NCBI RefSeq assembly: GCF_020171525.1 | Contig: NZ_JAIVAI010000007.1 | Coordinates: forward strand, 62,001 to 126,000 | Direction: 5' to 3' | Length of the DNA: 64,000 nucleotides | Origin: Halobacillus yeomjeoni | GTDB lineage: Bacteria; Bacillota; Bacilli; Bacillales; Halobacillaceae | Part shown: piece by piece, positions 1,944 to 53,162 of the stretch | Layout of the letters: every line of letters begins with the position of its first letter | Numbering within the stretch: position 1 is the first letter of the stretch | Notes under the pieces: generated by a model | Told to the model about the DNA's origin: nothing | The model's input: the letters and a program-made list of their open reading frames with translations, nothing else | Databases searched by the model: none | Program-made: the position numbers and the translations under genes

Positions 1944-2411
1944 GGCTCTGTTAAAGTCTGTTGTTGATATTTCAAACGATTACTAAATAGTCCCTGTCTG
2001 GGATTGGTTGTCCGGTCCGTTATATGCTCAAAGCATGGGATGTCAGGGAAAACAGTCCGCTTTCCGCGGGGGACGCTTGAGCCTCTTCGAACTTCGTTCT
2101 CCGGGGTCTCACCTTGTTCCTTTTTCCCGCAGGAGTCTACCTGTTTTCCCTGCCATCCCGTCCGTAGTTGGTGTGCCGGACTTCGGTAATGGCCTTTCCG
2201 ACCCTCCTACTTTGAAGAGGTGGCCTTGGGAATGGCGACACTCCTGTGGGATAAAGGTGCATCGTGAGACCCCGGAAGGCATAGCCTGAGGAGGCTCACG
2301 GTACCCCACGGAAAGGGAGTCATTCCCAAGGCCGCCTCACACAAATCCCAGGCCAGAAAGAGCTGATATGAGCTCACATGTGAAATAACAACACCAAGCA
2401 ATAGCAGAGCC
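1944..2411 (-). mobile_element. MITE-like element, copy 1 (468 bp, inverted orientation)
   Basis: The ends are GGCTCTGTTAAAG and (reverse complement) GGCTCTGCTATTG, imperfect terminal inverted repeats that continue into TGTTGTT. TTTTTATT at 1936-1943 is repeated exactly at 2412-2419, an 8-bp target duplication. Inside lie two long imperfect hairpins: module A (about 2037-2159, arms based on GGCAGGGAAAACAG) and module B (about 2217-2338, arms based on GGCGGCCTTGGGAAT). The layout is the reverse of copies 2-4. There is no transposase. The element ends 47 bp before the downstream lipoprotein gene, so it may supply or disrupt upstream signals. Confidence 0.88.
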
Positions 2412-2458
2412 TTTTTATTACATAAAAAGGGTATAAAAGTATGAAAGGGGGCAGATAG

Positions 2459-3502
2459 ATGAAAAAAAGTTTAGCAGTGATAGGTGTACTTTTATTTTTC
2501 GTATTAGTCGCTTGTTCAGATTCTCTCGAAGAAAATGAAAATAAAGAGGCATCATTTCAAAAAGTTGTCGAAGAACTTCAGTCGCCTTGGGATATTGAGT
2601 ATAGTGAGTCCACTTTTTATATCACGGAACGGGAAGGGAGCATCGTCTCCTGGGACGGTGAAAACAAACTAAGAATGAACGTGGATACCTCTAAGCCTGT
2701 CCTTCAACAAGGAGAAGGTGGGCTGTTGGGGATGAAACTGCATCCAGATTTCAAATCTAACCATCAAGCGGTCATCTACCATACGTATGCAGACGGTGAG
2801 CAGATTAAAAACCGTGTGGTCCTCGTTGAAAAACAGGAAGAAACTTGGGTGGAGAAAGAAATTCTAATTGAAAATATACCCGGTGCAAGGTTCCATAATG
2901 GTGGGAGAATTGAATTGGGACCTGATCAGAGTCTTTATATCACAACAGGAGATGCTTTGGATGAGGAGCTTGCTCAGGACAAAAGCAGCTTGGCTGGTAA
3001 AGTTTTAAGAGTGAATTTAGATGGAAGTCCTCCAGAGGATAACCCAATGCAAGGTTCCTACATTTATAGTTATGGACATAGAAACCCACAAGGTCTGGCT
3101 TGGGCAGAAGATGGAACGCTTTACGCATCGGAGCATGGACCTGATGCACATGATGAAATCAATGTAATTCGTAAAGGTGAAAATTACGGATGGCCATTGA
3201 TCAAAGGAAATGAAAAAGGTCCGGAATTGAATACCCCCTATTATCATACTGGTAAAACGACGTGGGCTCCTTCTGGTATATCCGTTCACAACGGCAAGTT
3301 ATATGTAGCGGCCCTGAGGGGGGAATCTGTAAAATCAATTTCATTGAATAATAAAAACATAGAGATAGTTACGGATAATTTCGGAAGGGTGAGGGATGTA
3401 GAGGTCGTAAATGACATTCTCTATTTTATTACCAATAATACCGATGGGAGAGGAGCACCGGAAAGTTCAGATGATGTGCTGGTTAAATTCAATCAAAAAT
3501 AA
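2459..3502 (+). CDS. PQQ-type glucose/sorbosone dehydrogenase-family lipoprotein
   Basis: This is a 347-residue exported beta-propeller protein. The signal peptide ends in the lipobox LVAC, so it is probably anchored on the outer face of the membrane. Family marks are GARFHNGGRIELGPD, LYITTGDA, GHRNPQGLAW and YASEHGPDAHDEINVIRKGENYGWP, which hold the catalytic and PQQ/metal-binding blades of soluble aldose sugar dehydrogenases. The SD AAAGGGGG lies just before ATG 2459. Oxidation of sugars at the membrane is known for relatives, but whether this protein binds PQQ is unproven. It is monocistronic and begins 47 bp after mobile repeat copy 1. Confidence 0.85.
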   Translation: MKKSLAVIGVLLFFVLVACSDSLEENENKEASFQKVVEELQSPWDIEYSESTFYITEREGSIVSWDGENKLRMNVDTSKPVLQQGEGGLLGMKLHPDFKSNHQAVIYHTYADGEQIKNRVVLVEKQEETWVEKEILIENIPGARFHNGGRIELGPDQSLYITTGDALDEELAQDKSSLAGKVLRVNLDGSPPEDNPMQGSYIYSYGHRNPQGLAWAEDGTLYASEHGPDAHDEINVIRKGENYGWPLIKGNEKGPELNTPYYHTGKTTWAPSGISVHNGKLYVAALRGESVKSISLNNKNIEIVTDNFGRVRDVEVVNDILYFITNNTDGRGAPESSDDVLVKFNQK

Positions 3503-3530
3503 AGAGCGGCACTATTGTGCCCGCTCTTAT
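3502..3530. terminator. Bidirectional terminator between convergent genes
   Basis: AAGAGCGGCAC pairs with GTGCCCGCTCTT across a 4-base loop with one bulged C. It lies between the stop codons of the + and - strand genes. Confidence 0.7.
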
Positions 3531-3968
3531 TCACTCTTCTGAAATGAATTTTCCATGAACAAACGCCATGATTGCAAATACAACAAATGCGATAAGGAGG
3601 ATAGTACCTCCGACGATGAAAAAAATGGTGTAGAACGTCTGCATGCCTTCAATCGGCCGAGTGTAATAAAGCCACATTCCTACAGTCAGCCCGAAGACCC
3701 CGATAAAAGAACTCCATACATGGATGACTGATAACTTTGAGTTCTTAGGTATATTGAAAAGTTTGTAGTAAACAGCAAAAGCAAACATTGACAGCCACCC
3801 GACAACTAGTATGTGCGCATGGATTGCGCTTAACTCCAGTCCACCGCCACCAGCCATGTGAGATCCCATAAAAGCTCCGATTAAAGCATAAACGGCAGCT
3901 ACTCTTACAAAAAATCGTGTACGATCCAATTCAACGCCCTCCTGATGTTCGATAGATTCTGAAGACAT
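3531..3968 (-). CDS. Small four-helix membrane protein related to cytochrome oxidase subunit I
   Basis: This 145-residue protein has four hydrophobic helices. The segment AIHAHILVVGWLSMFAFAVYYKLF resembles the haem-ligand helix of heme-copper oxidase or NO-reductase subunit I, and similar short proteins are annotated in Bacillaceae as cytochrome-c-oxidase-like. At about a quarter of a catalytic subunit it cannot be a full oxidase. The ATG at 3968 has no clear Shine-Dalgarno. A TTG at 3927-3929 (Leu14) is preceded by AGGAGG at good spacing, so the true protein may be 132 residues. The role is unknown, perhaps haem or copper handling. Confidence 0.65.
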   Translation of the reverse strand: MSSESIEHQEGVELDRTRFFVRVAAVYALIGAFMGSHMAGGGGLELSAIHAHILVVGWLSMFAFAVYYKLFNIPKNSKLSVIHVWSSFIGVFGLTVGMWLYYTRPIEGMQTFYTIFFIVGGTILLIAFVVFAIMAFVHGKFISEE

Positions 3969-4126
3969 TATAACGAAGTCAGCGCAGCTTTGGTATGAAT
4001 ACGGAGGATTTGTCGTAAAACGTTCATCAATGAAGAGTTATATAATTCGAATCTTTGTGTCATTTGGATTGCCGTTGAGGATGATATATGATGATAGAAG
4101 TAATTCAATTTTCGAGGAGTGTTTTC

Positions 4127-5230
4127 GTGAATATTCATAGACTGGATAACTTTTCAAAGTACTTAAAACAAAACAAAATAGATGCTGCTTTCATCAATTC
4201 CACTGAAAACTTCTTTTACTTGACAGGCTTTCACACGGACCCCCACGAGCGCTTGTTAGGGTTGCTTGTATTTCCGGATGATGCCCCCATCGCTGTTCTT
4301 CCATCAATGGAAACAGGGCAATTAAAAAATGCAGGTTGGACTCAGGAAATTATCGGATATAAAGACCATGAAAATCCATGGATGATGATAGGGGAACAAA
4401 TGAAACAGAACTGCATTTCCGGCGTGGAAACTGTAGGAATTGAAAAGCAAGTCCTTTCGTATGGCAGAAGTGAATCTTTTATAGAATTATTCACTGACGT
4501 TGATGTAGTAGATGTTGAAAGTAAGCTGAATGAAATGCGGGTCGTAAAAGATGAAAATGAAATTTCAATTATGCGGGAAGCGGCTGATTTAGCAGACTAC
4601 GGTGTTAAAGTAGGGACGGAAGCCTTAGAAGAGGGCGTTACCGAAATGGAAGTGCTGGCAAAGATCGAGTATGAACTCAAGAAAAAGGGTGTCTCACAAA
4701 TGTCCTTTTCAACTATGGTGTTGTTCGGTGAAAAATCAGGTCAGCCCCATGGAAACCCTGGGTACCGTAAGTTGAAAGCGGGAGATTTCGTCCTGTTTGA
4801 CATGGGTGTAGTTTGGAAAGGGTATACTTCCGACATCACACGAACATTTGCTTTTAAATATGCGTCTGATAAGCAAAAGGAAATATACGATACGGTGAAA
4901 CGTGCCCTTGATGCATCTCTTGCCATCAGTAAACCTGGAACAAGAATCGGAGATCTTGATCAAACAGCCAGAGATATCATTTCAAATGCAGGTTATGGAG
5001 AATTGTTCCCGCACCGCATCGGTCATGGACTTGGAATCAACGTACACGAATTCCCTTCAATGAGCCACTTGAATGATGATGTATTAAAAGTAGGTATGAC
5101 TTATACAATCGAGCCGGGGATATATGATCCGGAAATCGGAGGTGTCCGTTTAGAGGACGACGTGTTAGTTACTGAAGATGGATATGAAACGTTGACAAAG
5201 ACACCGAAAGACTTACGCATCATTGAATAA
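4127..5230 (+). CDS. M24-family Xaa-Pro peptidase (aminopeptidase P / prolidase)
   Basis: This is a 367-residue cytoplasmic metallopeptidase. The N-terminal creatinase-like domain covers about residues 1-125, followed by the pita-bread catalytic domain. The five metal ligands are visible: Asp in FDMGVVWKG, Asp in TSDITRTF, His in HRIGHGLG, Glu in TIEPGIY and Glu in RLEDDVLV. It should cleave Xaa-Pro bonds at N-termini or in dipeptides. The upstream ATG at 4088 lacks a binding site. GAGGAG at 4114-4119 lies seven bases before GTG 4127, so I choose GTG. A terminator follows. Confidence 0.88.
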   Translation: MNIHRLDNFSKYLKQNKIDAAFINSTENFFYLTGFHTDPHERLLGLLVFPDDAPIAVLPSMETGQLKNAGWTQEIIGYKDHENPWMMIGEQMKQNCISGVETVGIEKQVLSYGRSESFIELFTDVDVVDVESKLNEMRVVKDENEISIMREAADLADYGVKVGTEALEEGVTEMEVLAKIEYELKKKGVSQMSFSTMVLFGEKSGQPHGNPGYRKLKAGDFVLFDMGVVWKGYTSDITRTFAFKYASDKQKEIYDTVKRALDASLAISKPGTRIGDLDQTARDIISNAGYGELFPHRIGHGLGINVHEFPSMSHLNDDVLKVGMTYTIEPGIYDPEIGGVRLEDDVLVTEDGYETLTKTPKDLRIIE

Positions 5231-5236
5231 ATGTTG

Positions 5237-5268
5237 AAGAGCCACCTATAAAAGGTGGCTCTTTTTTT
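5237..5268 (+). terminator. Terminator of the Xaa-Pro peptidase gene
   Basis: AGAGCCACC / GGTGGCTCT stem followed by seven T. Confidence 0.85.
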
Positions 5269-5370
5269 AGATAAAAATATGAGTGCTGTAAGAGGGTTGT
5301 TTTCTGGGGTAAGTCCTACACTACATTGCCGGGTAAGGTTTTTTCTGCAGAACAAAACAAATAGCGGTTA

Positions 5371-5451
5371 TTATTGATTCATCCCCACCAAAATTAGTGC
5401 GAGGACGAGAATAAGGTAAAAGACAGCCAATTTTAAGTACACCCTTTTCAT
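5371..5451 (-). CDS. Predicted 26-residue single-span membrane peptide
   Basis: On the minus strand GGGGAGGATGGTT is followed by ATG and 26 codons ending in TAA. The product begins MKRVYLKLAVFYLI, is basic at the N-terminus and has one hydrophobic stretch of about 20 residues. The ribosome binding site (GGAGG, six bases before ATG) is as good as that of any gene here, which is the main reason to call it. I do not recognise the family. It sits alone in the 360-bp gap between the peptidase and rpiA. It could be a small regulatory membrane peptide or chance. Confidence 0.45.
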   Translation of the reverse strand: MKRVYLKLAVFYLILVLALILVGMNQ

Positions 5452-5632
5452 AACCATCCTCCCCACGTAAATCTTTTATTTGTGGTCCTTATATAAAAGT
5501 TATGTGAAGAAGTACTAAATCATGACCTTAAATTCAAGCGTACGTCCTCCAGGTGGAACCTTTAAGTGAATATTCTTTATCCGTGCTTGTTTTTGTGTTT
5601 TTCGGGAATACCAAAGAGGAGGGGGTATATTC

Positions 5633-6331
5633 ATGAAATGGAAAAATTCATTGGCTTCGGCAGAGAGCTGGGCAGGAGAAATATCAAACCTTGAAGAAAA
5701 GAATAAATTAGCTAAGAAAATCAGTGGAAAAATAAAAGATGGTGAAGTCATCGGAGTAGGATCCGGTTCTACGGCTTTCTTAGCTTTGAGAGCAATTGCC
5801 AAAAGAGTTAAACAGGAAGGCTTGGAGGTCTTGGCTGTCCCTACATCACAAGAAGCGTTATTAAACTGTTCCATGTTAGGGTTGAAAACGACGACATTGT
5901 CAGCAGCTAAGCCGGATTGGGGCTTTGATGGTGCGGATGAAGTGGATTCAAACAATCGTTTGATCAAGGGGAGAGGAGGGGCTTTGTTTGCCGAAAAACT
6001 CGTGATGGCAAGCGCACCTAAGACGTATATATTAGTAGACGAAAGTAAATTCGTCGATCGTTTAGGTGAAAAATTCCCCGTACCTTTGGAAGTGGATCCC
6101 CGGGCTATTCACTTGGTGGAGACACGTTTAGCTCAATTCCCTATTCAAGAAGTAGAGTTAAGAATGGCAAAGTCAAAAGACGGTCCTGTCATCACTGAAT
6201 CAGGAAACTTGATTTTGGACGTGCGGTTCGAAAAGATTTCCAATGAGATGGAAAAGGAGTTGAGTTTCATCCCCGGTGTCATAGAAACAGGCTTATTTAT
6301 TAGTTATTCCGTGGAAATTTTAAAGGTTTAA
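5633..6331 (+). CDS. rpiA: Ribose-5-phosphate isomerase A
   Basis: This 232-residue cytoplasmic enzyme interconverts ribose 5-phosphate and ribulose 5-phosphate in the pentose phosphate pathway. The family motifs are all present: the phosphate-binding loop GVGSGSTAFLALRAI, the catalytic DGADEVD, and KGRGGALFAEK with its active-site Lys. Length is normal. GAGGAGGGGG lies directly upstream of ATG 5633. It stands alone, with no pentose pathway gene nearby. Bacillus species usually carry the RpiB form, and the A form is usual in other genera, so this is a mild taxonomic hint. Confidence 0.93.
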   Translation: MKWKNSLASAESWAGEISNLEEKNKLAKKISGKIKDGEVIGVGSGSTAFLALRAIAKRVKQEGLEVLAVPTSQEALLNCSMLGLKTTTLSAAKPDWGFDGADEVDSNNRLIKGRGGALFAEKLVMASAPKTYILVDESKFVDRLGEKFPVPLEVDPRAIHLVETRLAQFPIQEVELRMAKSKDGPVITESGNLILDVRFEKISNEMEKELSFIPGVIETGLFISYSVEILKV

Positions 6332-6413
6332 GCCCATTTTAATTATATTTATTGGTACTCTTTAATACTTTTTCTATAATAGTAGTATATCCTTCATTCA
6401 AAGGAGAATCATT

Positions 6414-7943: not shown

Positions 7944-7958
7944 TTTATTTCCGGAGAG

Positions 7959-7984
7959 AAGACCTGCTTAGGCAGGTCTTTTTA
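7959..7984 (+). terminator. Terminator after the RQC-like gene
   Basis: AAGACCTGC / GCAGGTCTT with a 4-base loop, followed by TTT. Confidence 0.85.
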
Positions 7985-8006
7985 CATCCTCATGAAAGCG
8001 TTTGAA

Positions 8007-8017
8007 TATGCTATAAT
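8007..8017 (+). promoter_or_regulatory. Extended -10 promoter candidate for the DUF4166-kynA pair
   Basis: TATGCTATAAT holds a perfect TATAAT (8012-8017) preceded by TGC (extended -10). No good -35 is seen. TGAAAGCGTTTGAA at 7993-8006 matches 12 of 14 positions of a CcpA cre site and overlaps the promoter, but it is weak. Confidence 0.45.
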
Positions 8018-8122
8018 TTACTTAAAACAAGAAGAAATTGCCCCCAAAAATAATGGTATTCACAGTATCGTGAATAATGACTGATTTGTATATTACGGAC
8101 GATTTCTAAGGAGGTCTTTGCC

Positions 8123-8767: not shown

Positions 8768-8779
8768 AGGAGAGTTATG

Positions 8780-9616: not shown

Positions 9617-9701
9617 GAAACGAATGTAACGTAAGGATTAAATAATTGTTACACTTATGTTACAATGATGGTTGCAAAAATTTTATAGAAGAGGATCTTT
9701 T

Positions 9702-11060: not shown

Positions 11061-11095
11061 AAAACCGCAGCCTATGCATAGGCTGCGGTTTTTAG
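11061..11095. terminator. Bidirectional terminator between the deacetylase and metX
   Basis: A near-perfect palindrome AAAACCGCAGCCTAT / ATAGGCTGCGGTTTT with A- and T-runs on both sides serves both convergent transcripts. Confidence 0.88.
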
Positions 11096-11127
11096 TTGTG
11101 CCTCTGTTTCATCTTGAAACCTCGTAA

Positions 11128-12183: not shown

Positions 12184-12203
12184 CCTTACACCTCCTTTCA
12201 TGC

Positions 12204-13960: not shown

Positions 13961-14118
13961 AAGAAAGCCCTCTTCTCATTTAAGAAGAGGGCGTAATTTA
14001 AGGTCCTCCTCTTATCTTCCAGATCCAACGACCTGTAGGATTTAGCACCTTTTCAAGAAAACTTGAAGGTTGCCGGGCGTCATAGGGCCTAGTCCCTCTG
14101 CCACTCTCAATAAGAGAT
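13961..14118 (-). ncRNA. SAM-I (S-box) riboswitch with expression-platform terminator, upstream of metY
   Basis: Read on the minus strand, the aptamer starts at about 14117 with CTCTTATTGAGAGTGGCAGA. It then shows GGGACTAGGCCC, ATGACGCCCGGCAACC and GGTGCTAAATCC, and closes with GATAAGAG near 14009. These are the conserved S-box core, the P3 arm and the P1 closing strand. Downstream at 13967-13992 the stem AAGAGGGC / GCCCTCTT followed by TTTC is the intrinsic terminator. SAM binding should favour the terminator and switch metYX off when methionine is plentiful. Confidence 0.95.
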
Positions 14119-19434: not shown

Positions 19435-19443
19435 TATTATTTA

Positions 19444-19809
19444 GGCTCTATGATTGCTTCGTGTTGTTATTTTACATATGAGCTTATATCAGCTCTTTCG
19501 GTCCTGGAATTTGTGTGAGGCGGCTTTGGGAATGACTCGCTTTCCGTGGGGTACCGTGAGTCTCCTCAGGCTGCGCCTTCCGGGGGCTCACGATGTACCT
19601 TTATCCCACAGGAGTCTCGCCATTCCCAAAGCCGCCTCTTCAAAGTAGGAGGGGCGGAAAGCCATTACCGAAGTCCGCTACACCAACTACGAACGGACTG
19701 TTTTCCCTGCCATCCCATGCTCTGAGTAAATAAAGAAACGAACACCTAATCCTAGACCGAAACTATTTAGTAATCGCTTAAAATATCAACAACACACTTT
19801 AACTGAGCC
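19444..19809 (+). mobile_element. MITE-like element, copy 2 (366 bp, internally deleted)
   Basis: The ends are GGCTCTATGATTGCTTCG and CACACTTTAACTGAGCC. ATTATTTA at 19436-19443 is repeated exactly at 19810-19817, an 8-bp target duplication. Module B is complete. Module A has lost one arm and its loop: the sequence jumps from CCAACTACGAA to CGGACTGTTTTCCCTGCC. The loss is 102 bp relative to copies 1 and 3. The right target duplication contains the stop codon of the convergent oxidoreductase gene. Confidence 0.88.
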
Positions 19810-19814
19810 ATTAT

Positions 19815-21407
19815 TTAAAACTGATGATCAGGTTGGTCTTCTTCCGGCTGATCTCCGGTGATTGGGTGAATAGGGCTGGTATCTTCTAATACAATCCGAG
19901 GTAAAGGTTGATCAGCAGGTCCCTCGACGACACTTCCGTCATAAGAAAAACGGGAGCCATGACACGGACAATCCCACGTATGTTCAGCGCTGTTCCACTC
20001 AACTTCGCAACCCATGTGGGTACAGGTCGTGTCCAGCAGGAAAATCTCATCATTTTCATCCCTGTATGCTCCTGCGCGCTCACCTCTCCATTGAACGACT
20101 CTCCCTTGTCCTTTCTTTAACCTTTCTGGTCGGTCGGCAACGAGCTCAAGCTTTCCTTCCACCAGATGGACAGCAACATTGAAGTTTTGAGATAAGAACT
20201 GTTTCATACTTGGGTCTGCTTTGAAGCGGCTCGGTTTGAACAGTTCATGGAAAAGAGATTCTTCTCCTGTAATGTATTGACTTAATAGTTGAGCTGCCAG
20301 AGTACCGTTTGTCATACCCCATTTTCTGAAACCTGTCGCGATGAAAACACGCTTGTTTTTACGGGTGATCGGACCGATATAAGGAACCTTGTCCAAAGTC
20401 GTCAAGTCTTGAGCAGACCATTGGTAGAGCTTGTTTTTGATACCGAAGTGTTGAGCTGCAAACTCTTCAATGGCCCTGTAATGAAAGGAAGTATCTACAC
20501 CTTCTCCTGTCTTGTGGTTTTCGCCGCCGACAAGAAGAACACGCTTACCATCGAAATCAGCTGTACGGATCGTTCGTTTAGGTTCATCGATAGAAAGATA
20601 CATCCCATCAGGAATTTCCCGTTCTGGTTCAATGGCCATGAGATAGGATCGTTCTACATACATGCGACTGAAATAAAATCCTTTTCCATCATAAAAAGGG
20701 AAGTGTGAACAAGAAACCACTTTTTCACAACTGATTTCACATTCGTTTCCTGTCTCTACAATAATGCGATCTTCTTCTCTGACGTTCGTAGCCGTTGTAT
20801 GTTCATATATTTGACCGCCTAATTTTATAAATTGGTCTACGAGGGCCGATAAATATTTTAAAGGGTGGAAACTCGCCTGTTCGTCCATACATAAAGCTTC
20901 AGAAGCCTCGACGTCGAATGGAAGCGAGTCTAATAATCGGCCGGGAATGTTCAGCGTTTGATAGGCTTCATATTCATCTCGTATTTTTTCAGCACCCTGT
21001 TTCGTAGTTGAGAATATACAGGCCTCTGCGTTTTTCCAATCGCAATCGATTTGATATTGGTCGACCCATTCTTTCATAGAGGTCATGGCTCCCATTTGGG
21101 CTTGATAATAAAGAGAAGCATTTTCAACACCGAAATGCTTAACCAGCTCATGATAAATCAACCCGTGTTGAGCCGTTACTTTCGCAGTTGTGTGACCGGT
21201 TGTACCGTTCAACAACTGGTCTGCCTCCAGTAAAGTGACTTGTTTTCCTGCTTTCGCCAATAGAAAAGCTGTCGTAATACCGGTAATTCCTCCACCGACG
21301 ACAACGATTTCAGCAGATGTATCTTCGTTTAATGATTCATATGAAGGGATGGATGTATCTTCTCGCCACATAGGCTCGGGGCGGGACCATTCTTGATGAT
21401 TTTCCAT
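19815..21407 (-). CDS. FAD-dependent oxidoreductase fused to a C-terminal Rieske [2Fe-2S] domain
   Basis: This is a 530-residue protein. Residues about 35-390 form a DadA-type FAD domain (EIVVVGGGITGITTAFLLAK, then GTTGHTTAKVTAQHG). The last 110 residues form a Rieske cluster domain with CTHMGCEVEW and CPCHGSRF, which supply the Cys-His/Cys-His ligands. It may pass electrons from an amine or similar substrate through FAD to the iron-sulfur cluster, and the substrate is unknown. The frame is open 26 codons further upstream, but AGGAGG sits six bases before ATG 21407. The stop codon TAA (19815-19817) lies within the target duplication of mobile repeat copy 2. Confidence 0.88.
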   Translation of the reverse strand: MENHQEWSRPEPMWREDTSIPSYESLNEDTSAEIVVVGGGITGITTAFLLAKAGKQVTLLEADQLLNGTTGHTTAKVTAQHGLIYHELVKHFGVENASLYYQAQMGAMTSMKEWVDQYQIDCDWKNAEACIFSTTKQGAEKIRDEYEAYQTLNIPGRLLDSLPFDVEASEALCMDEQASFHPLKYLSALVDQFIKLGGQIYEHTTATNVREEDRIIVETGNECEISCEKVVSCSHFPFYDGKGFYFSRMYVERSYLMAIEPEREIPDGMYLSIDEPKRTIRTADFDGKRVLLVGGENHKTGEGVDTSFHYRAIEEFAAQHFGIKNKLYQWSAQDLTTLDKVPYIGPITRKNKRVFIATGFRKWGMTNGTLAAQLLSQYITGEESLFHELFKPSRFKADPSMKQFLSQNFNVAVHLVEGKLELVADRPERLKKGQGRVVQWRGERAGAYRDENDEIFLLDTTCTHMGCEVEWNSAEHTWDCPCHGSRFSYDGSVVEGPADQPLPRIVLEDTSPIHPITGDQPEEDQPDHQF

Positions 21408-34433: not shown

Positions 34434-34434
34434 A

Positions 34435-37692: not shown

Positions 37693-39126
37693 TTGAAAGC
37701 AGTTCTTGATGTTCTCAATACGTATATGTGGGGATATATTCTTGTAGCTTCTCTATTAGGACTCGGTTTATGGTTCACCATCAAACTCGGGTTCGTTCAA
37801 TTCCGTTACATTCCTGAAATGGTTCGTGTATTGTTCGACAAACGATCGATTTCAGCAGAAGGGAAAAAAGGAACGTCCGCTTTCCAGGCGTTCACGATCA
37901 GTACGGCATCCCGTGTAGGGACAGGAAACCTTGCTGGAGTCGCTGCGGCTATTACCGTCGGAGGACCTGGAGCCGTATTTTGGATGTGGATCGTCGCATT
38001 ACTAGGAGGCGCTTCAGCATTTATTGAAAGTACACTGGCTCAAGTTTACAAAGTACCAGATAAAAATCAGTATCGTGGAGGACCGGCCTACTACATGGAA
38101 AAAGGGTTGAAGAACCGTAAACTTGGAATCTTGTTTGCGATTACGATCACGTTTACGTACGGTCTCGTTTTCAGCTCTGTGCAATCCAACACGATTCGAC
38201 TGGCATTTGAAAACTCATTCAATGTAGAAAAATGGATGATGGGCATCATCCTTACTCTTGTCGTCGCACTTATTATATTTGGTGGTTTGAAAAGGATCGC
38301 ACAAGTGACACAATACGTTATTCCTGTCATGGCTGTGTTCTACCTTATCCTCGCTGGATACGTACTATTCAATAACTTTGGACAGATCCCGGTCATGGTC
38401 GGCCAAATCTTCCAAGGTGCTTTCGGATTTAGAGAGATAGCAGGGGGAACATTCGGAGGCATGATTCTCATCGGAATTAAACGAGGACTTTTCTCCAACG
38501 AAGCAGGTATGGGTAGTGCCCCGAACGCTGCTGCAACTTCAGAAGTTACACACCCTGTCAAACAAGGTTTGATTCAAACGTTAGGTGTATTCACTGATAC
38601 GCTGCTTATTTGTAGTGCTACAGCAATTATCATTCTATTTGCTGGTGATTACGCGGGAACTGAACTTGATGGAATTCAGCTTACACAGGCTGCATTCGAA
38701 AACCAACTGGGAACATGGGCAGCTATTTTCATTGCCATTGCCATTCTCCTGTTCGCTTTCAGTTCTATTATAGGTAACTATTATTATGGAGAAACGAACA
38801 TTGAGTTCATCAAGAGTAGTTCAACGAACATCTTCATCTACCGTCTTGCTGTTCTTGGGATGGTACTTTTCGGTGCAGTTGCTAAATTTGAATTGGTTTG
38901 GTCACTTGCTGACCTGACGATGGGAATTATGGCGTTGATTAACTTGTATGCCATTCTCAGACTTTCATCTGTCGCTTATGCAGCACTGAAGGATTACCGT
39001 GAACAACGGAAACAAGGAAAAGATCCGATCTTCTACCAAGACCATCTGCCTGGTGTCGATGGAATGGAATATTGGAGACGAGATCAGGACATCGCTTACG
39101 AAAGCGAAAAACGTGCAAACCAATAA
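37693..39126 (+). CDS. Alanine/glycine:cation symporter (AGCS family)
   Basis: This 477-residue protein has 11 or so transmembrane helices. The family signatures are GTGNLAGVAAAITVGGPGAVFWMW (unwound TM1-like substrate site) and GMILIGIKRGLFSNEAGMGSAPNAAA. It takes up alanine or glycine with Na+. The start is TTG 37693, eight bases after GGAGGT, since no ATG lies in a better place. It resembles Bacillus AlsT. Na+-coupled uptake fits a saline habitat. Its own terminator follows. Confidence 0.9.
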   Translation: MKAVLDVLNTYMWGYILVASLLGLGLWFTIKLGFVQFRYIPEMVRVLFDKRSISAEGKKGTSAFQAFTISTASRVGTGNLAGVAAAITVGGPGAVFWMWIVALLGGASAFIESTLAQVYKVPDKNQYRGGPAYYMEKGLKNRKLGILFAITITFTYGLVFSSVQSNTIRLAFENSFNVEKWMMGIILTLVVALIIFGGLKRIAQVTQYVIPVMAVFYLILAGYVLFNNFGQIPVMVGQIFQGAFGFREIAGGTFGGMILIGIKRGLFSNEAGMGSAPNAAATSEVTHPVKQGLIQTLGVFTDTLLICSATAIIILFAGDYAGTELDGIQLTQAAFENQLGTWAAIFIAIAILLFAFSSIIGNYYYGETNIEFIKSSSTNIFIYRLAVLGMVLFGAVAKFELVWSLADLTMGIMALINLYAILRLSSVAYAALKDYREQRKQGKDPIFYQDHLPGVDGMEYWRRDQDIAYESEKRANQ

Positions 39127-39176: not shown

Positions 39177-39371
39177 TCCTCGTAATCATCTTGATATTTT
39201 GTGTTGATTTATGAACATGCCTTTATTTGATTAACAAATTAACCTCCAACTAATATTTAACACTTAAGCCAAAGACATTACTTCTAGAGAATAGGGTAGG
39301 TGTTAGTCCGCTCTGTGGGTTTTGCCTATTCTACTATCCGCGTGTTTCCGTTCTTCTTACAAACAATTAGG

Positions 39372-39490
39372 AGGTTTGGGAAATCAGGAGACTCCTGTGG
39401 GGTGTACATGATTGGTGAGTTCCCGCAAAGGCTTCGCCTTGAGGAAGCTCACTACATGCCCCCGGAAAGCGAGTGATTTCCAAGACCCTC
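39372..39490. repeat. Solo hairpin repeat related to the mobile-element modules
   Basis: GAGGTTTGGGAAATCA and TGATTTCCAAGACCCTC are arms of a 119-bp imperfect palindrome. Inside are GGAGACTCCTGTGGGG and the smaller palindrome AGGCTTCGCCTTGAGGAAGC, the same internal pattern as modules A and B. No GGCTCTGTTA ends or target duplication are visible. The rest of the 39177-39641 gap shows nothing coding. A frame at 39412-39633 is an artefact of the repeat. Confidence 0.65.
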
Positions 39491-39641
39491 TTCTCTATGT
39501 AATGAAAAGGAAACCTCCTGCGACCCTGGGTTTCAAAATATTGGACCCCGTCTTAAGAAAGCTGGTCATTTTAAGAAAAGACGTGTACCGCGCTATTATG
39601 CTATTATTGGATAAGATTCTGATTAAAGGATGAGCGGATTT

Positions 39642-41540
39642 ATGAGTATATTATCAGTGGAAAATCTGAGTAAGAGTTTTGGGGATAAGGATTTATTCAA
39701 AGATATTTCTTTTACGATAACCAACCAGCAGAGAATCGGGTTGATAGGAGTCAACGGTACAGGAAAGTCCACATTATTGAAGATATTGGCTGATATCGAA
39801 AGTGGAGATGCAGGTCAGAAAGATCACGCGAAAGATTTCACCGTTGAATATCTCCCTCAAGAACCAGACTTGGATGAAAGAAAAACGGTTTTAGAACAGA
39901 TTTACTATGGTGATTCCGAAGTCATGAAAGTGATGAGGAGTTATGAGCAGGTTTTGATCGAGCTGGCCCAAAATCCAGAAGATCCATCCACGCAACAGAA
40001 AATGCTCGACCTTCAGCAAAAAATGGATGAGAAAGATGCATGGGAAGCGAATACGCAGGCGAAAACCATCCTTTCTAAGTTGGGTGTAGCATCTTATGAG
40101 AAGAAGGTGGAAGATCTATCTGGAGGACAGAAAAAGCGGGTCGCGATAGCCAAGGCGCTTATTCAGCCCGCCGACTTACTATTACTGGATGAACCTACCA
40201 ACCATTTGGATAATGAAACGATTGAATGGCTCGAAGAATATTTGTCTTCTTATAAAGGTTCGTTGATCGTAGTCACTCACGATCGTTACTTCCTGAATCG
40301 GGTGACGAATTTAATTTATGAGTTGGACAAAGGAAACTTATATATCTATGAAGGAAACTATGAAACGTTTTTAGAAAAGAAAGCGGAGAGAGAAGAACAG
40401 GAACGCCAGGCAGAACAAAAACACCAGAACACTCTTCGTAAAGAATTGGCTTGGTTGAAAGCCGGAGTAAAAGCGAGGACCACGAAGCAAAAAGCCCGAA
40501 AACAGCGGGTGGAAGCGATGAAGGATGAAACGTTTGATACGAAAAAAGAAAATGTCGATATGGCAATAGGGTCGACAAGACTGGGGAAACAAGTTTTAGA
40601 ATTGGAAGGGATTACTCACGGATTTGGAGGAGACCCCCTCATTCAAGATTTGGATTACTTAGTGGTTCCTGGTGAAAGGTTAGGGATCATCGGAGCGAAT
40701 GGTTCTGGTAAAACGACACTCTTGAATATCATGGCTCAAAGAATTAAGCCGGATCAAGGCCATGTTAAGGTCGGTTCGACAGTTAAAATCGGATATTACA
40801 CACAAAATCATGAGGAAATTGATGATTCCCTTAAAGTTATAGAGTACATCAAAGAAGAAGCTGAAGTTATTTCGACTGCCGACGGGGATGAAATTACTGC
40901 AGAACAGATGCTGGAACGCTTTTTATTCCCAAGGTCTCAGCAGTGGACTTATATTAAGCGGTTGTCTGGAGGAGAACGTCGACGTCTTTATTTGTTGAGG
41001 GTTCTGATGAGTGAACCGAACGTATTGTTTTTAGATGAGCCGACCAACGATTTGGACACGGAAACGTTAAGTATTTTGGAAGATTATTTAGAACAGTTTC
41101 CTGGCGTAGTCATAACGGTTTCCCACGACCGGTACTTCCTGGATCGTGTCGTTGATAAGCTTCTTGCATTTGAAGGGAATACGAAACTACGAAGATTCCA
41201 TGGAAATTATACAGAGTACTTGGAGGAAAGGAAGCTTGAGCAGAAGACCGAAACCGAACAGCGGAAAACGATCTCCAATCAAGAGGAGACGAGAAGGTCG
41301 AACCGCAAGCGGAAGCTATCCTATCATGAAAAACAAGAGTGGGAGACGATCGAGGATGATATCCAAGATCTAGAAATGAAGCTTGAATCCGTAAGTGAAG
41401 AGATCTCTGAAGCTTCCAGTGACTTCGATAAAGTACAGGAACTCTACCAAAAACAAGAAGAGCTCGAACAAGAGTTAGAGTCTAAAATGGAGCGCTGGGA
41501 AGAACTGTCATTGATTGTTGAAGAAATGGAGAATGGCTGA
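39642..41540 (+). CDS. ABC-F ribosome-associated ATPase (YfmR/Uup-like)
   Basis: This 632-residue soluble protein has two ABC domains: Walker A GVNGTGKST and GANGSGKTT, signatures LSGGQKKR and LSGGERRR, Walker B LLLLDEPTN and VLFLDEPTN. The inter-domain linker (residues about 240-300) is the P-site tRNA interaction motif region, and the C-terminal 90 residues form a coiled coil, the Uup/YfmR layout. ABC-F proteins act on stalled ribosomes and YfmR aids synthesis through proline stretches. ATG 39630 is too close to AAAGGA. ATG 39642 has better spacing and begins MSILSVENLSKSFG. Confidence 0.88.
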   Translation: MSILSVENLSKSFGDKDLFKDISFTITNQQRIGLIGVNGTGKSTLLKILADIESGDAGQKDHAKDFTVEYLPQEPDLDERKTVLEQIYYGDSEVMKVMRSYEQVLIELAQNPEDPSTQQKMLDLQQKMDEKDAWEANTQAKTILSKLGVASYEKKVEDLSGGQKKRVAIAKALIQPADLLLLDEPTNHLDNETIEWLEEYLSSYKGSLIVVTHDRYFLNRVTNLIYELDKGNLYIYEGNYETFLEKKAEREEQERQAEQKHQNTLRKELAWLKAGVKARTTKQKARKQRVEAMKDETFDTKKENVDMAIGSTRLGKQVLELEGITHGFGGDPLIQDLDYLVVPGERLGIIGANGSGKTTLLNIMAQRIKPDQGHVKVGSTVKIGYYTQNHEEIDDSLKVIEYIKEEAEVISTADGDEITAEQMLERFLFPRSQQWTYIKRLSGGERRRLYLLRVLMSEPNVLFLDEPTNDLDTETLSILEDYLEQFPGVVITVSHDRYFLDRVVDKLLAFEGNTKLRRFHGNYTEYLEERKLEQKTETEQRKTISNQEETRRSNRKRKLSYHEKQEWETIEDDIQDLEMKLESVSEEISEASSDFDKVQELYQKQEELEQELESKMERWEELSLIVEEMENG

Positions 41541-42952: not shown

Positions 42953-42962
42953 GCAAGAACTC

Positions 42963-43000: not shown

Positions 43001-43088
43001 TTCTCTTCTATAGTACAGCGTTGTCATGAACCCTCACTCCGGTTGTTATCCTATCTCCAAAGAGAAATAAAGTAAACCAACCGTTTGA

Positions 43089-44990: not shown

Positions 44991-45005
44991 GTTATTGCCT
45001 CCTTA

Positions 45006-46671: not shown

Positions 46672-46701
46672 AGATGCTTCTCTCCCTTCTCACATTTATT
46701 C

Positions 46702-46728
46702 GACGATAATTTTTTTGGAAAAGACTCA
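46702..46728 (-). promoter_or_regulatory. Candidate autoregulated ECF promoter
   Basis: On the minus strand TGAGTC (46723-46728), 17 bp with a run of seven A, then CGTC (46702-46705). ECF promoters of Bacilli have AAC-type -35 and CGTC/CGTA -10 elements, so the -10 fits well and the -35 only partly. Confidence 0.4.
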
Positions 46729-46754
46729 GGTGTGTATTTTTTCTTTTAAAAAAT

Positions 46755-47222
46755 GGCTCTGTTATTGCTTGGTGTTGTTATTTCACATGTGAGCTCATAT
46801 CAGCTCTTTCTGTCCTGGAATTTGTTTGAGGCGGCCTTGGGAATGACTCGCTTTCCGTGGGGTACCGTGAGCCTCCTCAGGCTGATGCCTTCCGGGGTCT
46901 CACGATGTACCTTCATCCCACAGGAGTCTCGCCATTCCCAAGGCTGCCTCTTCAAAGTAGAAAGGTCGGAAAGACTATAACCGAAGTCCGTTACACCAAC
47001 TACGAAGGGGATGGCAGGGAAAACAGGTAGACTCCTGCGGGAAAAAGGAACAAGGTGAGACCCCGGAGAACGAAGTTCGAGGAGGCTCAGCGTTCCCCGC
47101 GGAAAGCGGACTGTTTTCCCTGCCATCCCATGCTCTGAGTAAATAATGGACCGGACTCCTCATCCCAGACGGGGGCTACTTAGTAATCGTTTAAAATATC
47201 AACAACAGACTTTAACAGAGCC
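46755..47222 (+). mobile_element. MITE-like element, copy 3 (468 bp, full length)
   Basis: The ends are GGCTCTGTTATTGCTTGG and CAGACTTTAACAGAGCC. TAAAAAAT at 46747-46754 is repeated exactly at 47223-47230. Module B is at 46828-46950 and module A at 47008-47129, both long imperfect hairpins. The left end also holds GAGCTCATATCAGCTC, a near palindrome. It has exactly the same length as copy 1. It separates the divergent sigma-factor operon, whose candidate -35 is 26 bp away, from the desaturase-like gene, which starts 51 bp after the right end. Confidence 0.9.
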
Positions 47223-47273
47223 TAAAAAATAAAAAACAGGGGATATAAATAACAGGATAGGAGTGAATGGACA

Positions 47274-48752: not shown

Positions 48753-48812
48753 TTGATTTTTCTTATACAAGGGAAAGGATATAAAGAAAGAACGTGAAAA
48801 GGAGAGATATAT

Positions 48813-48986
48813 ATGCCAGGTCCAGAAAACGAACTTCCCGGCTTCCAAGCCAATCCAAACGAATTCGGGAAATGTGGAAATTGTGGAAAATTATTGACCA
48901 CAAAGAAAGAGGAAGAGTTGAAGCTTTGTAAAGACTGTCAGGAAAGACATAAAGATGATGATATCGAATATGACGAAGCCGAATGA
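48813..48986 (+). CDS. 57-residue zinc-ribbon protein
   Basis: ATG 48813 is preceded by AAAAGGAGA at good distance and the frame closes at TGA 48984-48986. The product has CGNCGKLL and CKDCQERH, two CxxC-type knuckles about 19 residues apart, so a four-Cys zinc ribbon is likely. The N-terminus is Pro/Asn-rich and the tail very acidic (DDDIEYDEAE). I do not recognise a named family. It lies 60 bp after the desaturase-like gene and may share its transcript. Confidence 0.7.
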   Translation: MPGPENELPGFQANPNEFGKCGNCGKLLTTKKEEELKLCKDCQERHKDDDIEYDEAE

Positions 48987-49336
48987 TACATTCAAGTGTC
49001 GTACTCTTTTGGGGTGCGGCATTTTTGTTTGAGATAGGTGGTAGAGTAATTCTATTTTCATATGTGTAAATAAACTGAAGGACGTTGAAAAAGGATATAG
49101 GGTCATATCCACTGCACTTTGGCGGGAAGATGAATAAATCTCTTAAACATAAGGGATTCTTATACTAACAAGACAAATGAAATGTTCTCATGACTTCGTC
49201 AGATTGATTCTTCAGAGTGACTAATAAAATGAAATCGTTAACAACAATTAATACTTTACACTAGGTCTAAAGAAGTGTTAGGGTCAGAAAATGTGCTGAA
49301 CGAAGCACGAATTATCAAATCAAAGAGGAGAGAACT
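48987..49336. other. 350-bp gap without a gene
   Basis: Apart from a probable terminator at 48997-49028 (TGTCGTAC / GTGCGGCA with two G-U pairs, then TTTTTG), this gap shows no frame with a binding site and no clear sigma-A promoter. Osmotic control of the betaine carrier would act here, but no site is evident. Confidence 0.5.
48997..49028 (+). terminator. Probable terminator after the zinc-ribbon gene
   Basis: 8-bp stem with two G-U pairs and a following T-run. Confidence 0.55.
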
Positions 49337-50851
49337 ATGAACAATAAAAAAATAGGGCGCGTAGATTGGCCCGTCTTTGGAATAAGCGGTGGTCTTTTAG
49401 TACTATTCGTTTTTCTAGCACTTATAGATATCAACTTAGTAGAAACAATCGTAAATAAAGGGTTTGGATGGTCAGCCAAATATTTTGGTGCCTTCTGGCA
49501 GGTGTTGATGCTTGCAACATTCTTCGTAGGAATAGGGCTTGGATTTTCCAAGTATGGAAAGATAAAATTGGGAGGTATCGATCAGCCCGAAATCAGCCTG
49601 TATAAATGGTTATCCATCATTATGGCTACATTATTAGCTGGTGGTGGAGTTTTCTGGGCAGCTGCTGAGCCGATGTACCACTTCTTGACGGTTCCACCGC
49701 ATCAATCCGGTATTGAGGCTGGAACAAAAGCGGCCATCGATCCAGCATTAGCGCAAAGCTTTATGCACTGGGGATTCCTCGCGTGGGCAATCCTTGGTAC
49801 GATCAGTGCCGTTGTGATGATGTATGGACATTACCATAAAGGCATGCCGATGAAACCTCGTACGTTGTTGTATCCGATCTTTGGTGAAAAAATCCGTCAC
49901 AGTTGGATCGGTACAGTCATTGACGCTTTTTCAGTCATCGCTGTCGCAGCTGGAACTATTGGTCCAATCGGTTTCTTAGGACTGCAGGCGAGTTACGGTC
50001 TGCAGGAGATATTTGGAATCCCTAACCAATTCAGCACGCAGTTCAGCATTATATTTGCCGTTGTTCTCATATCAACGATCTCAGCTGTAACAGGCCTTTA
50101 CAAAGGGATTCAATATTTGAGTAGCTTTAACGTCCGTTTAGCAATAGGACTGATGGTGTTTATCGTCATTTTCGGTCCTGGTGGTTTCATCTTCAATCAT
50201 TTCCTATCTGGTTTCGGTTTTTATATTGATCAGTTTATTCCGATGAGTACTTTCAGGGGAGACACGACTTGGCTTTCTTTCTGGACGGTCTTCTTCTGGG
50301 GCTGGTTCATTGGGTATGGTCCAATGATGGCAATCTTAGTCAGTCGTATTTCCAGAGGACGTACGATTAGAGAAATCATTGTCGCCGTTTCCATTTTTGC
50401 ACCAGTCATCTCAACGTTCTGGTTTACCGTACTAGGCGGATCCGGTATTTTCTTCGAGCTGAATAATCCTGGCTCCGTATCTGAAGCCTTGAATTCAGCA
50501 GGTAACTCTGCGGCTATGTTCGCTATTACTGAACAATTCCCATTAGCCAGTGTCATTTCTCCTTTATTCTTGTTGTTGACGATACTTTTCGTCGTTACGA
50601 CAAGTGACTCCATGTCTTACACGATCGCCATGGCAGTTACAGGGGAAGGAAATCCGAAAAGCTGGCTTCGTATCTTCTGGGCAGTATTGATGGGTACAGT
50701 TGCAGTCATTCTGCTGATTACAGGAGATAGTGGTATTACACAGCTTCAGAACTTCATTGTGGTAACAGCCGTACCTGTTTCGTTATTGCTTTTACCAATG
50801 ATTTGGCTTGCTCCTAAAGTGGCGAAGAAGATGTATAAAGAACAGAAGTAG
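49337..50851 (+). CDS. BCCT-family betaine/choline/carnitine transporter
   Basis: This 504-residue protein has 12 transmembrane helices. The betaine-site helix is GGGVFWAAAEPMYHF, and the conserved signature helix is WTVFFWGWFIGYGPMMAILVSRISRGRTIREII. BCCT carriers such as OpuD or BetP import glycine betaine with Na+ as osmoprotectant. The short N- and C-terminal tails suggest no large osmosensing domain. GAGGAGAG precedes ATG 49337. It is monocistronic with a strong terminator. Substrate identity within the family is not resolved. Confidence 0.92.
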   Translation: MNNKKIGRVDWPVFGISGGLLVLFVFLALIDINLVETIVNKGFGWSAKYFGAFWQVLMLATFFVGIGLGFSKYGKIKLGGIDQPEISLYKWLSIIMATLLAGGGVFWAAAEPMYHFLTVPPHQSGIEAGTKAAIDPALAQSFMHWGFLAWAILGTISAVVMMYGHYHKGMPMKPRTLLYPIFGEKIRHSWIGTVIDAFSVIAVAAGTIGPIGFLGLQASYGLQEIFGIPNQFSTQFSIIFAVVLISTISAVTGLYKGIQYLSSFNVRLAIGLMVFIVIFGPGGFIFNHFLSGFGFYIDQFIPMSTFRGDTTWLSFWTVFFWGWFIGYGPMMAILVSRISRGRTIREIIVAVSIFAPVISTFWFTVLGGSGIFFELNNPGSVSEALNSAGNSAAMFAITEQFPLASVISPLFLLLTILFVVTTSDSMSYTIAMAVTGEGNPKSWLRIFWAVLMGTVAVILLITGDSGITQLQNFIVVTAVPVSLLLLPMIWLAPKVAKKMYKEQK

Positions 50852-50860
50852 AAAAATATA

Positions 50861-50896
50861 AAAAGGTTGGCGCATACCCTTGCGCCAACCTTTTTT
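50861..50896. terminator. Bidirectional terminator between the BCCT gene and kynB
   Basis: AAAAGGTTGGCGCA / TGCGCCAACCTTTT, a perfect 14-bp stem with a 6-base loop. Confidence 0.9.
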
Positions 50897-51515
50897 ATTT
50901 TTGTCTTAGTACTGCTCGGACAGGGCTCCCATCTGCTTCTTTCATTTTAAGTGGGAAAGCCATTAATTCATAGACACCTGGAGCCACGTGCTCCAATTGC
51001 AGACCTTCCAAAATCAAAATGTCATTTTCGTAAAGGGAGTGATGGGCATTCAATTCTTTGCTGGTTTCAGGATCGACAGAAGGCGTATCGACACCAATCA
51101 AATCGATTCCCTTGGCACGAAGGTAAGGCCCCACATCAGCTCCGATAACCGTATAATCCTTTGGGAATTCAGAGCGGTCTTTCCAACTGTTTGTCCTGAA
51201 TAAAACTTTCTTGACCCCATGATATTCAAAGGGGTGGAGGTCGTCTTTGGTTATGTTTTTCTTATTTTCCATATTGATCACTAAAGCATCACCAAGAAAC
51301 CTCTCGACTGGTAAATCTGCCACCCTAAACCCATCCGAGTCATAGTGAAAAGGGGCATCGATGTGTGTCCCGATATGGTTGCTGGCTTTCAGTTGGCCGA
51401 CATTCACAGATCCTGTTTCTTCCATGGAGAAAGTCAGGTTGTACTTGAATGCTTGATCCCCCGGCCACGGTGGGGTTTGGTCATCAAGCGTCATCGAAAT
51501 ATCAATCAACTTCAT
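50895..51515 (-). CDS. kynB: Arylformamidase (kynurenine formamidase, cyclase family)
   Basis: This 206-residue metal-dependent hydrolase converts N-formylkynurenine to kynurenine and formate. The zinc motif HIGTHIDAPFHYDSDG is complete, with IDISMTLDDQTPPWPGD at the N-terminus and GVDTPSVDPETSKELNAHHSLYENDILILEGL later. AGGAGGAGG lies before ATG 51515. It starts 15 bp after the kynU stop, in one operon. Confidence 0.93.
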   Translation of the reverse strand: MKLIDISMTLDDQTPPWPGDQAFKYNLTFSMEETGSVNVGQLKASNHIGTHIDAPFHYDSDGFRVADLPVERFLGDALVINMENKKNITKDDLHPFEYHGVKKVLFRTNSWKDRSEFPKDYTVIGADVGPYLRAKGIDLIGVDTPSVDPETSKELNAHHSLYENDILILEGLQLEHVAPGVYELMAFPLKMKEADGSPVRAVLRQK

Positions 51516-51530
51516 GAAGCATCCTCCTCC

Positions 51531-52811
51531 TTAAGCAATAATTCCTCGTTCATTTTTATATTGTTTGTGTTTTTCATTCATAATAATATCTTTGAGTATG
51601 AACATGACTTCATAAACATCCTCAAAACTTGTGTAAAGAGCTATAGGAGCCAATCGAATGACATTGGGGGAGCGGAAGTCAGGAATGACGTTCTCGTCTT
51701 TTAAAGCTTTACAAATACTAGCCGCTTCAGGGTGAATCAGGCTTACATGGCCACCACGGTGCTGGTCTTCTAATGGATTGGCGATTTTTAACCCACAATC
51801 ATAAAGCTCCTGGTGGATTAAATTCATCATCAAACGAGTCAATTGCAGTGATTTTTCACGAACGGATTCAATTCCCGCTTCATGGAATAATTCAAGAGAC
51901 CCGAGAAGAGGTGCAGAACTCATGATATGAGGAGTTCCAATCTGATAGGCGCCTGCGTTTTCAGCAGGTATCAATGTATGCCCCATGTCAAATTGTTTCT
52001 CTTTGTTTGAGCTGAACCAACCTGCAAGGCCTGGTTTTCTACCTGTATGTTTTTCGTGTACAAATAATCCACCAACGCCTCCGGGTCCACTATTCAAATA
52101 TTTATACGTGCACCATACAGCGAAATCAACTCCCCACTCGTTCAGTTGGTGTGGAAGCGCTCCGATGGAGTGGGCCAGATCAAACCCGACAGTGATCCCT
52201 TTTTCATGGGCGGCTTTTGTAATCTTCTCAATGTCTAACAGTTGTCCACTGCGGTATAAAACAGAGGGGAGTAAAAGCAAGGCAATATCTTCAGACATCT
52301 CAGCTATGATATCTTCTTCCGATAGTGTATAGCCATCTTCACTGTCTACTTGAAGCAAATGATCGGCAGGATCCAGGCCGTGGAGTTCAAGCTGGCTTTT
52401 TATTGCATAAATATCAGAGGGGAAGTTGAGTTCATCTGCCAAAATTTTCGTACGTTGATTGTCCGGTTTGAAAAATGTAGCTAATAATTGGTGCAGGTTG
52501 GTCGTGATCGATCCCGTATTGATGACTTCGTGGGGCTTTGCACCGATTAGTGGTGCCGTCATTTCACCAAGTTTTTCAGACATGTAAAACCATGGTTGTT
52601 CTCCTTCGGTCCAACCTTCGATTCCATGATTTTTCCAGTCCTGAAGAGCAGTAAGAAGTGTGTGTTCAGCTCTTTTCGAAAGCAAACCAAGCGAATTTCC
52701 ATCCATGTAATAATGTTCTTCTTTCAGGTAAAATTCATTGCGGAATTTATTTAAATGGTCTGCTTGGTCAAGCTTCCGAACAGTATCTCTCGTTATTTTT
52801 GATTTCGTCAT
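51531..52811 (-). CDS. kynU: Kynureninase
   Basis: This 426-residue PLP enzyme cleaves kynurenine to anthranilate and alanine. The PLP lysine is in [20 protein letters not shown], with the cofactor Asp in [13 protein letters not shown], and the N-terminal [16 protein letters not shown] is typical. The frame runs 23 codons further upstream, but AGGAGG six bases before ATG 52811 and the promoter position fix this start. With kynA and kynB it completes conversion of tryptophan to anthranilate. Confidence 0.94.
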
Positions 52812-52829
52812 GCAATCCCTCCTGAATTT

Positions 52830-52859
52830 ATTATAAAGAAGCTGCGGTGGGCCTGGCAA
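52830..52859 (-). promoter_or_regulatory. Promoter of kynUB
   Basis: On the minus strand TTGCCA (52854-52859) and perfect TATAAT (52830-52835) are 18 bp apart. The transcript start would be about 10 bp before the SD, so the leader is very short and no riboswitch fits. Confidence 0.6.
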
Positions 52860-52899
52860 AAATTCCATAATTTCTTTCAAAAGTGTTTTTTATAGTCTT

Positions 52900-53162
52900 G
52901 GCTTTGTTATTGCTTGGTGTTGTTATATTACAGGTGAGCTTTCCGTCCTGGGTTTTTTATGAGGCGGCCTTTTGAATGACTCGCTTTTCGTGGGGTACCG
53001 TGAGCCTAATCAGGCTGCGCCTTCCGGGGTCTCACGATGGACCTTTATCCCACAAGAGTCTGCCATCCCATACTCCTGGTAAAGAACGGACCGAAATCAC
53101 AATTCAGGAATGTGAACTAGTAAGATATCGTTTAAATTTCAACAATAGACTTTAACAGAGCC
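52900..53162 (+). mobile_element. MITE-like element, copy 4 (263 bp, most reduced)
   Basis: The ends are GGCTTTGTTATTGCTTGG and TAGACTTTAACAGAGCC. Flanks are ATAGTCTT (52892-52899) and AAGTCTT (53163-53169), an 8-bp duplication that has lost one T on the right. Module B's distal arm and nearly all of module A are gone: the sequence passes from CCCACAAGAGTC directly to TGCCATCCC. A further 10 or so bases are missing near the left end. It lies between the kynUB promoter and the recQ terminator. Confidence 0.82.

Follow-up and report, generated by a model that had tools for sequence, protein, structure and literature searches.

Insertion sequences of the IS1595 family were reportedly the subject of work by Siguier et al. 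in 2009. According to passages of PMC8101967, members of this family usually make 8-bp target duplications and, except for the IS1016 group, carry an N-terminal zinc finger, and ends beginning with GG are given there for Merlin elements, which are related to IS1595; for ISApl4, excerpts of PMC12561309 describe 8-bp repeats that are preferably A/T-rich. Short repeats of Bacillus halodurans appear in part of PMC2267715 as Bhal-1 (74 bp, 36 copies) and Bhal-2 (76 bp, 50 copies), the latter noted as containing clustered regularly interspaced short palindromic repeats (CRISPR). Here we describe four copies of a short element in a 64,000-nucleotide stretch of the Halobacillus yeomjeoni genome (RefSeq assembly GCF_020171525.1, contig NZ_JAIVAI010000007.1, positions 62,001 to 126,000 of the forward strand), which is referred to in full as the window. 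These copies are very probably a non-autonomous transposable element, that is, a miniature inverted-repeat transposable element (MITE), of the IS1595 family. The assignment draws on the ends, target duplications and copy number observed in the host genome, on IS1595 elements that have the same ends and duplications, and on transposase fragments present in the host.

We infer that a single-gene IS1595-type transposase, supplied by a full element, would act in trans on ends of about 29 bp (GGCTCTGTTAAAGT..RTTGTTGATATTT) and insert the element into AT-rich sites with duplication of 8 bp. The cargo would consist of two facing hairpins of an order-wide repeat, with no gene, and the shorter copies would be deletion derivatives, some of them retaining arms of both hairpins. 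The class of element is a known one, and its enzyme family, guessed to be IS6 or ISL3 in an earlier note on this DNA, is here corrected to IS1595.

The window copies and their relatives

Direct reading of the window confirmed all four copies that the earlier note had reported, together with the flanking repeats it claimed for them, three exact over 8 bp and the fourth one base short, and the length of 468 bp shared by copies 1 and 3. The copies and their duplications are as follows.

1944-2411, minus strand: MITE copy 1, 468 bp, with hairpin B (2036-2159, plus) and hairpin A (2217-2339, minus) facing each other; exact 8-bp duplication TTTTTATT
1936-1943 (left) and 2412-2419 (right): target duplication of copy 1, TTTTTATT
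19444-19809, plus strand: MITE copy 2, 366 bp, with hairpin A retained (19516-19638) and hairpin B mostly gone; exact duplication ATTATTTA
19436-19443 (left) and 19810-19817 (right): target duplication of copy 2, ATTATTTA
46755-47222, plus strand: MITE copy 3, 468 bp, with hairpin A (46827-46950, plus) and hairpin B (47008-47130, minus); exact duplication TAAAAAAT
46747-46754 (left) and 47223-47230 (right): target duplication of copy 3, TAAAAAAT
52900-53162, plus strand: MITE copy 4, 263 bp, decayed, with an incomplete hairpin A (52960-53078, 53.9 bits); flanks ATAGTCTT / AAGTCTT(A), one base lost

Copies 1 and 3 lie in opposite orientation and are 92% identical, and the other ends in the window agree with the right-hand end of copy 3 in 20-29 of 29 positions. 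The absence of evident coding capacity, also claimed previously, is supported by open reading frames of at most 108 amino acids over the copies and by a protein search in which no transposase match is listed on the contig of the window (C7). Frames of 93 and 108 amino acids cover copies 1 and 3 and coincide with the hairpins; they are taken as due to chance.

The host genome is a 3.27 Mb draft of 15 contigs, in which at least 40 places resemble copy 1, window copies 1-3 included; this count is a lower bound, since scoring covered 40 of the 152 candidates from a first look and the list of matches lacks copy 4. The 29-base end has 72 matches in this genome at up to 3 mismatches, compared with 0 for a reversed control. 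Each left end was paired with the nearest right end 100-1300 bases away in 58 sources, namely the window and 57 stretches (37 further places like copy 1 and 20 around other end matches), which hold a subset of the 72 end matches. This yielded 49 two-ended elements, 157 to 576 bp long except for one of 828 bp. Exact 8-bp duplications flank 26 of the 49, while the flanks are off by one base in 7, by two in 7, by three in 3 and by five or more in 6, and the duplicated bases are AT-rich. When left and right flanks of different elements were cross-paired, only 7 of 2352 combinations were exact. The numbers of end matches and exact duplications bear out a MITE-like family with terminal inverted repeats and 8-bp target duplications. 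Host copies of 400-490 bp have a mean identity of 89% and a maximum of 97%, and exact duplications were found around 10 of 12 elements of this length in two other species of the genus (13 loci were entered, one of which was beyond the length limit). The further copies that the earlier note proposed to look for are therefore present both in the host genome and in relatives. In contigs C6, C7 and C8 the break falls within a longer element, which has the same end together with part of a hairpin and additional sequence (L059 1-407, L060 1-240 and L061 886-1209), and a repeated larger element may have been collapsed at these contig ends.

Orthologous intervals were compared in relatives of the genus, whose flanking genes share only about 64-77% identity with those of the host. 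At the site of copy 3, the flanking matches lie 142 bp apart in genome G005 and 632 bp apart in the window, where subtraction of the element and one duplication gives an expected 156 bp. At the site of copy 1, judged by coordinates only, G004 has 1173 bp against 1632 bp, with 1156 bp expected without the element, and the interval in G005 is too small for the neighbouring gene as well. The copy 4 interval is shorter in G005 (217 against 545 bp), G018 and G013, and longer in G004 (about 1.9 kb). No end motif at up to 8 mismatches of 29 was found in the eight relative stretches that correspond to the sites of copies 3 and 4. Going by these lengths and motif searches, the copies are absent from several orthologous intervals, and repeats occupying the same sites in relatives, the outcome named by the earlier note as contrary to mobility, were not seen. 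A tree of 40 copies places 28 host copies on one side of a branch with 100/100 support and the 12 copies of the two other species on the other side, so that an intermixing of copies between species is not borne out. It appears that these lineages saw separate expansions of the family. The identity of MITEs across species reaches 92%, which is above that of the flanking genes, so transfer of a founder is possible.

IS1595 elements with the same ends

When four IS1595 elements were compared with the right end of copy 3, their two ends agreed with it in 22-28 of 29 positions. In genome G053, of the same family as the host, a 1619 bp element (L080) contains an intact IS1595-type gene between exact duplications of TTAAATAA. 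A Pontibacillus plasmid (L087) carries a 1392 bp element with similar ends, the exact duplication TTATATTA and an intact gene annotated as an IS1595 family transposase (WP_207530853.1). On the viral contig IMGVR_UViG_3300038313_000250 (L182, 4034-5644) the element measures 1611 bp from end to end, with the exact duplication TAATTTAA and a 342-amino-acid transposase gene. This last element also carries an extra frame of 90 amino acids, and the viral contig is a possible vehicle for transfer. The element of Metabacillus lacus (L171, 5758-7795) is 2038 bp long, with the exact duplication AAAGAAAA and a 296-amino-acid transposase frame that lacks its N-terminus; a passenger frame of 174 amino acids in it is acetyltransferase-like, its matches to named acetyltransferases being far under their cut-offs. 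In Aquisalibacillus (L167) the element is 1337 bp long with the exact duplication AAATAAAT and a broken transposase gene, in G013 a decayed element of 1103 bp (L084) retains the exact duplication TTTCTGTT, and L177 has a broken gene and no duplication. The IS1595 model NF033547 was matched by all five transposases scanned (E 1.2e-61 to 1.6e-65), all five were also above the cut-off of the zinc domain NF050000, and PF12762 was matched by three of three.

Genome contigs of 10 organisms, those that are named all being of Bacillus-like genera, contain the end pattern in 15 stretches, and one viral contig contains it too. A partner end is present in 12 of these 16 stretches and is lacking within 3.5 kb in three (L168, L175 and L181); L173 is cut at the locus edge. 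Nine of the 12 have an exact 8-bp duplication (L167, L169, L170, L171, L172, L174, L178, L179 and L182; in L170 the duplicated bases are all T), and the others are off by one base (L176), off by two (L180) or without a duplication (L177). L174 and L178 overlap the set of 400-490 bp copies from the two other species. The suggestion that a transposase encoded elsewhere acts on the copies is supported by the intact IS1595 genes between the same ends in other genomes; the mobilisation itself is what we infer from them.

The earlier note had also proposed a comparison of the ends with transposases of the same genome, and here the host provided IS1595 fragments, at C2:10119-10344 and C1:1024966-1025160, but no intact gene. 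An end-bounded stretch of 828 bp (L058, 1538-2365) has a frame of 118 amino acids and the N-terminal part of a transposase, interrupted by one stop; the borders of this stretch are uncertain because its flanks form no duplication. A 52-residue fragment from it is 92% identical to the Pontibacillus plasmid gene annotated as an IS1595 family transposase, and neither the N-terminal fragment nor a 25-residue piece had an NCBIfam or Pfam match up to E 1. The cognate transposase was traced through the N-terminal fragment only and not through a DDE-domain search. When 44 genomes of the family were searched for the full-length transposase, 18 had matches; among the matches listed, G048 accounts for two intact genes and G053 for one, and no other genome has any. 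A plasmid collection gave no match to 280 bases of the contig-end element, and a search of it with the MITE returned hairpin-sized pieces in four records.

A number of points weigh against assigning the window copies to an IS1595 MITE. In the host genome, left and right flanks disagree in at least two of the 8 bases for 16 of the 49 elements. As to the empty sites called for by the earlier note, the relatives compared gave intervals that are mostly shorter, those of copies 3 and 4 also free of the end motif, but no empty site exact to the base, because the divergence of the flanks is too large. At the site of copy 3 both flanks aligned only in G005, and G018, G013 and G004 gave an alignment of the downstream flank only; at the site of copy 2 the intervals are shorter in all four relatives but by more than the element length, so other DNA differs there too. 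No intact transposase was found in the host assembly, a 15-contig draft, and the search for the IS1595 DDE domain (PF12762) had no match in the host genome or in any of 22 genomes of the genus, so that the proposed supplier of the transposase is modelled on elements of other genera. The zinc-ribbon model PF12760 stayed under its cut-off in three of three transposases, and the two intact genes of G048 have a left end but no right end in the stretch examined. No movement of the element was observed. The draft could be missing an intact gene, because contigs C6, C7 and C8 end inside the longer element with the same end (L059-L061). Since the host draft holds only transposase fragments, the MITE family looks stranded in this genome unless a full element arrives.

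The hairpin cargo and rival explanations

The 468-bp copies hold two inverted repeats of about 125 bp that face each other, paired hairpins that had been missed in the first reading of the window. A further member of the hairpin family lies outside the four copies.

39368-39493, minus strand: single hairpin, 99.2 bits, E 2.3e-24, between the frames 37693-39126 and 39630-41540

Thirty hairpins from several genomes were aligned, selected out of 40 sequences that represent 161 pattern matches, with chimeric or doubtful sequences dropped by eye and the window copies added. The alignment has a conserved core, and its outer arms vary between copies yet stay paired. Standard pairs occupy 91.2% of the cells, and in 30 of 41 pairs both partners have changed. 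Covariation was 0.456, compared with 0.183 for shuffles and 0.096-0.145 for slid versions, over which the structure has an advantage in that it comes from this very alignment. Folded as RNA, four of four single hairpins were 6.0 to 8.0 standard deviations below their own shuffles, and arms were more complementary to their own partners (13.1) than in cross comparisons (6.7; 138 matches, some of them false). Selection acting on a folded strand might keep the arms complementary, as might the correction of imperfect palindromes by template switching. Some small MITEs join an arm of hairpin A to an arm of hairpin B, and recombination or slippage between the two hairpins may account for the size classes.

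A covariance model detected the hairpin in 113 of 150 sampled genomes and 64 of 83 genera of the order, in a scan that scored at most 23 candidates per genome and gives no full per-genome counts. Among 54 close hairpin pairs in the loci examined, 51 face each other, one points apart and two are tandem; a large share of the facing pairs belong to copies of this one MITE. Hairpins flanked by IS1595 ends on either side occur at two host loci, L147 (flanks differing at two bases) and L152 (exact ATGTATTT), as well as in L161 of another family (one of 8 bases differs) and in Thalassobacillus (L169, exact). At L096 and L162 an end is present on one side. By eye, another outer motif, TTTCGAGA with its complement, was recognised around the hairpin in several relatives (L016, L017, L090, L093, L096 and L102); it was not seen in the window copies. 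Tentatively, the hairpin of about 125 nucleotides could be an order-wide selfish or functional DNA or RNA element. Its arms would be maintained as complements, and it would spread in facing pairs by means of IS1595 ends, as a MITE cargo shared across Bacillus-like genera.

The rival that survives best holds that the hairpin pair is the real repeat, with its own route of spread, around which IS1595 ends were acquired once or more. Besides the wide distribution in the order, it is favoured by the lack of an outer IS1595 end, at up to 5 of 28 mismatches within 260 bp outward, in 8 of 10 extra host loci and, in other genomes, in 19 of 22 loci that contain a hairpin, and by the facing orientation that pairs without such ends keep. 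On the other side are the pairs bounded by IS1595 ends in Halobacillus, Thalassobacillus and another family, and two host loci counted as end-less, L143 and L144, in each of which a weak end with 7 mismatches came out below the 20 shuffles. The end-less L017 also shares outer sequence, by eye, with the end-bearing L096, a likeness that would be expected of a decayed MITE. We regard this history as possible though doubtful; it concerns the origin of the cargo and is compatible with an IS1595 MITE as the explanation of the window copies.

It is very improbable that the copies are instead regulatory RNAs with a structure, or terminators, forming a fixed family that is mobile in looks only. The strong covariation of the hairpins speaks for such a family, as do, in one strand, two T-G pairs that hardly vary (30 of 30 and 28 of 30) and would fit RNA selection. 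However, the target duplications, the lineage-specific copies and the copies missing from orthologous intervals all indicate insertion, and the window copies lie between neighbouring frames that are co-directional in two cases, convergent in one and divergent in one. One-sided changes in the hairpins gave 24 G-T against 38 A-C, showing no preference for G-T, and an argument for RNA function from G-T wobble was dropped for this reason. A scan of the window with Rfam 15 at gathering scores returned a SAM riboswitch only and no match to the hairpins, and L012, which has two hairpins, gave 10 matches up to E 5, the highest at 31.2 bits against a gathering score of 85. The riboswitch lies at 14009-14116 on the minus strand (RF00162, 88.9 bits).

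Least probable of all is mobilisation by an IS6- or ISL3-family enzyme, as the earlier note had guessed from the 8-bp duplications and GG-starting ends that occur in both families: the transposases found between these same ends are of IS1595 type (IS6 itself was not searched for), the ISL3 model PF01610 has 0 matches in the host genome while 4 of 14 control genomes match it, and NF033550 scores 14.7-19.4 bits, where listed, against a cut-off of 180.

Comparison with described systems

An IS1595 MITE as the explanation of the window copies links a high-copy repeat of the genus to a named enzyme family and so makes its mobility testable, and the analysis brings to view a hairpin family that has strong covariation, a nearly fixed orientation of its pairs and no Rfam match at gathering scores. 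In a literature search, whose coverage left out many subscription papers, no title among the matches listed names this MITE or the hairpin, and a search by the letters of the hairpin gave titles on unrelated subjects (best 20 of 52).

The features given for IS1595 in passages of PMC8101967 and PMC12561309, a single transposase gene, an N-terminal zinc finger, the DDE_Tnp_IS1595 domain and 8-bp duplications, are shared by the intact relatives found here, whereas the window elements are gene-less and the elements of Metabacillus lacus and the viral contig carry a further frame beside the transposase. MITEAba12, as portrayed in part of PMC6382973, is likewise a miniature inverted-repeat element derived from an insertion sequence, but the interior of the window MITE is a facing, covarying pair of hairpins from a much wider repeat family. 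Bhal-1, Bhal-2 and Bcr1 resemble the hairpin in being repeated, mostly intergenic stem-loops, going by sections of PMC2267715, and Bhal-1 or Bhal-2, compared by description only, might be the hairpin found here. REP sequences and REPINs, according to excerpts of PMC3116915 and PMC2817692, are short palindromic repeats that also alternate in orientation; they differ in being associated with REP-associated tyrosine transposases (excerpts of PMC2817692), whereas the window MITEs have IS1595 ends and 8-bp duplications.

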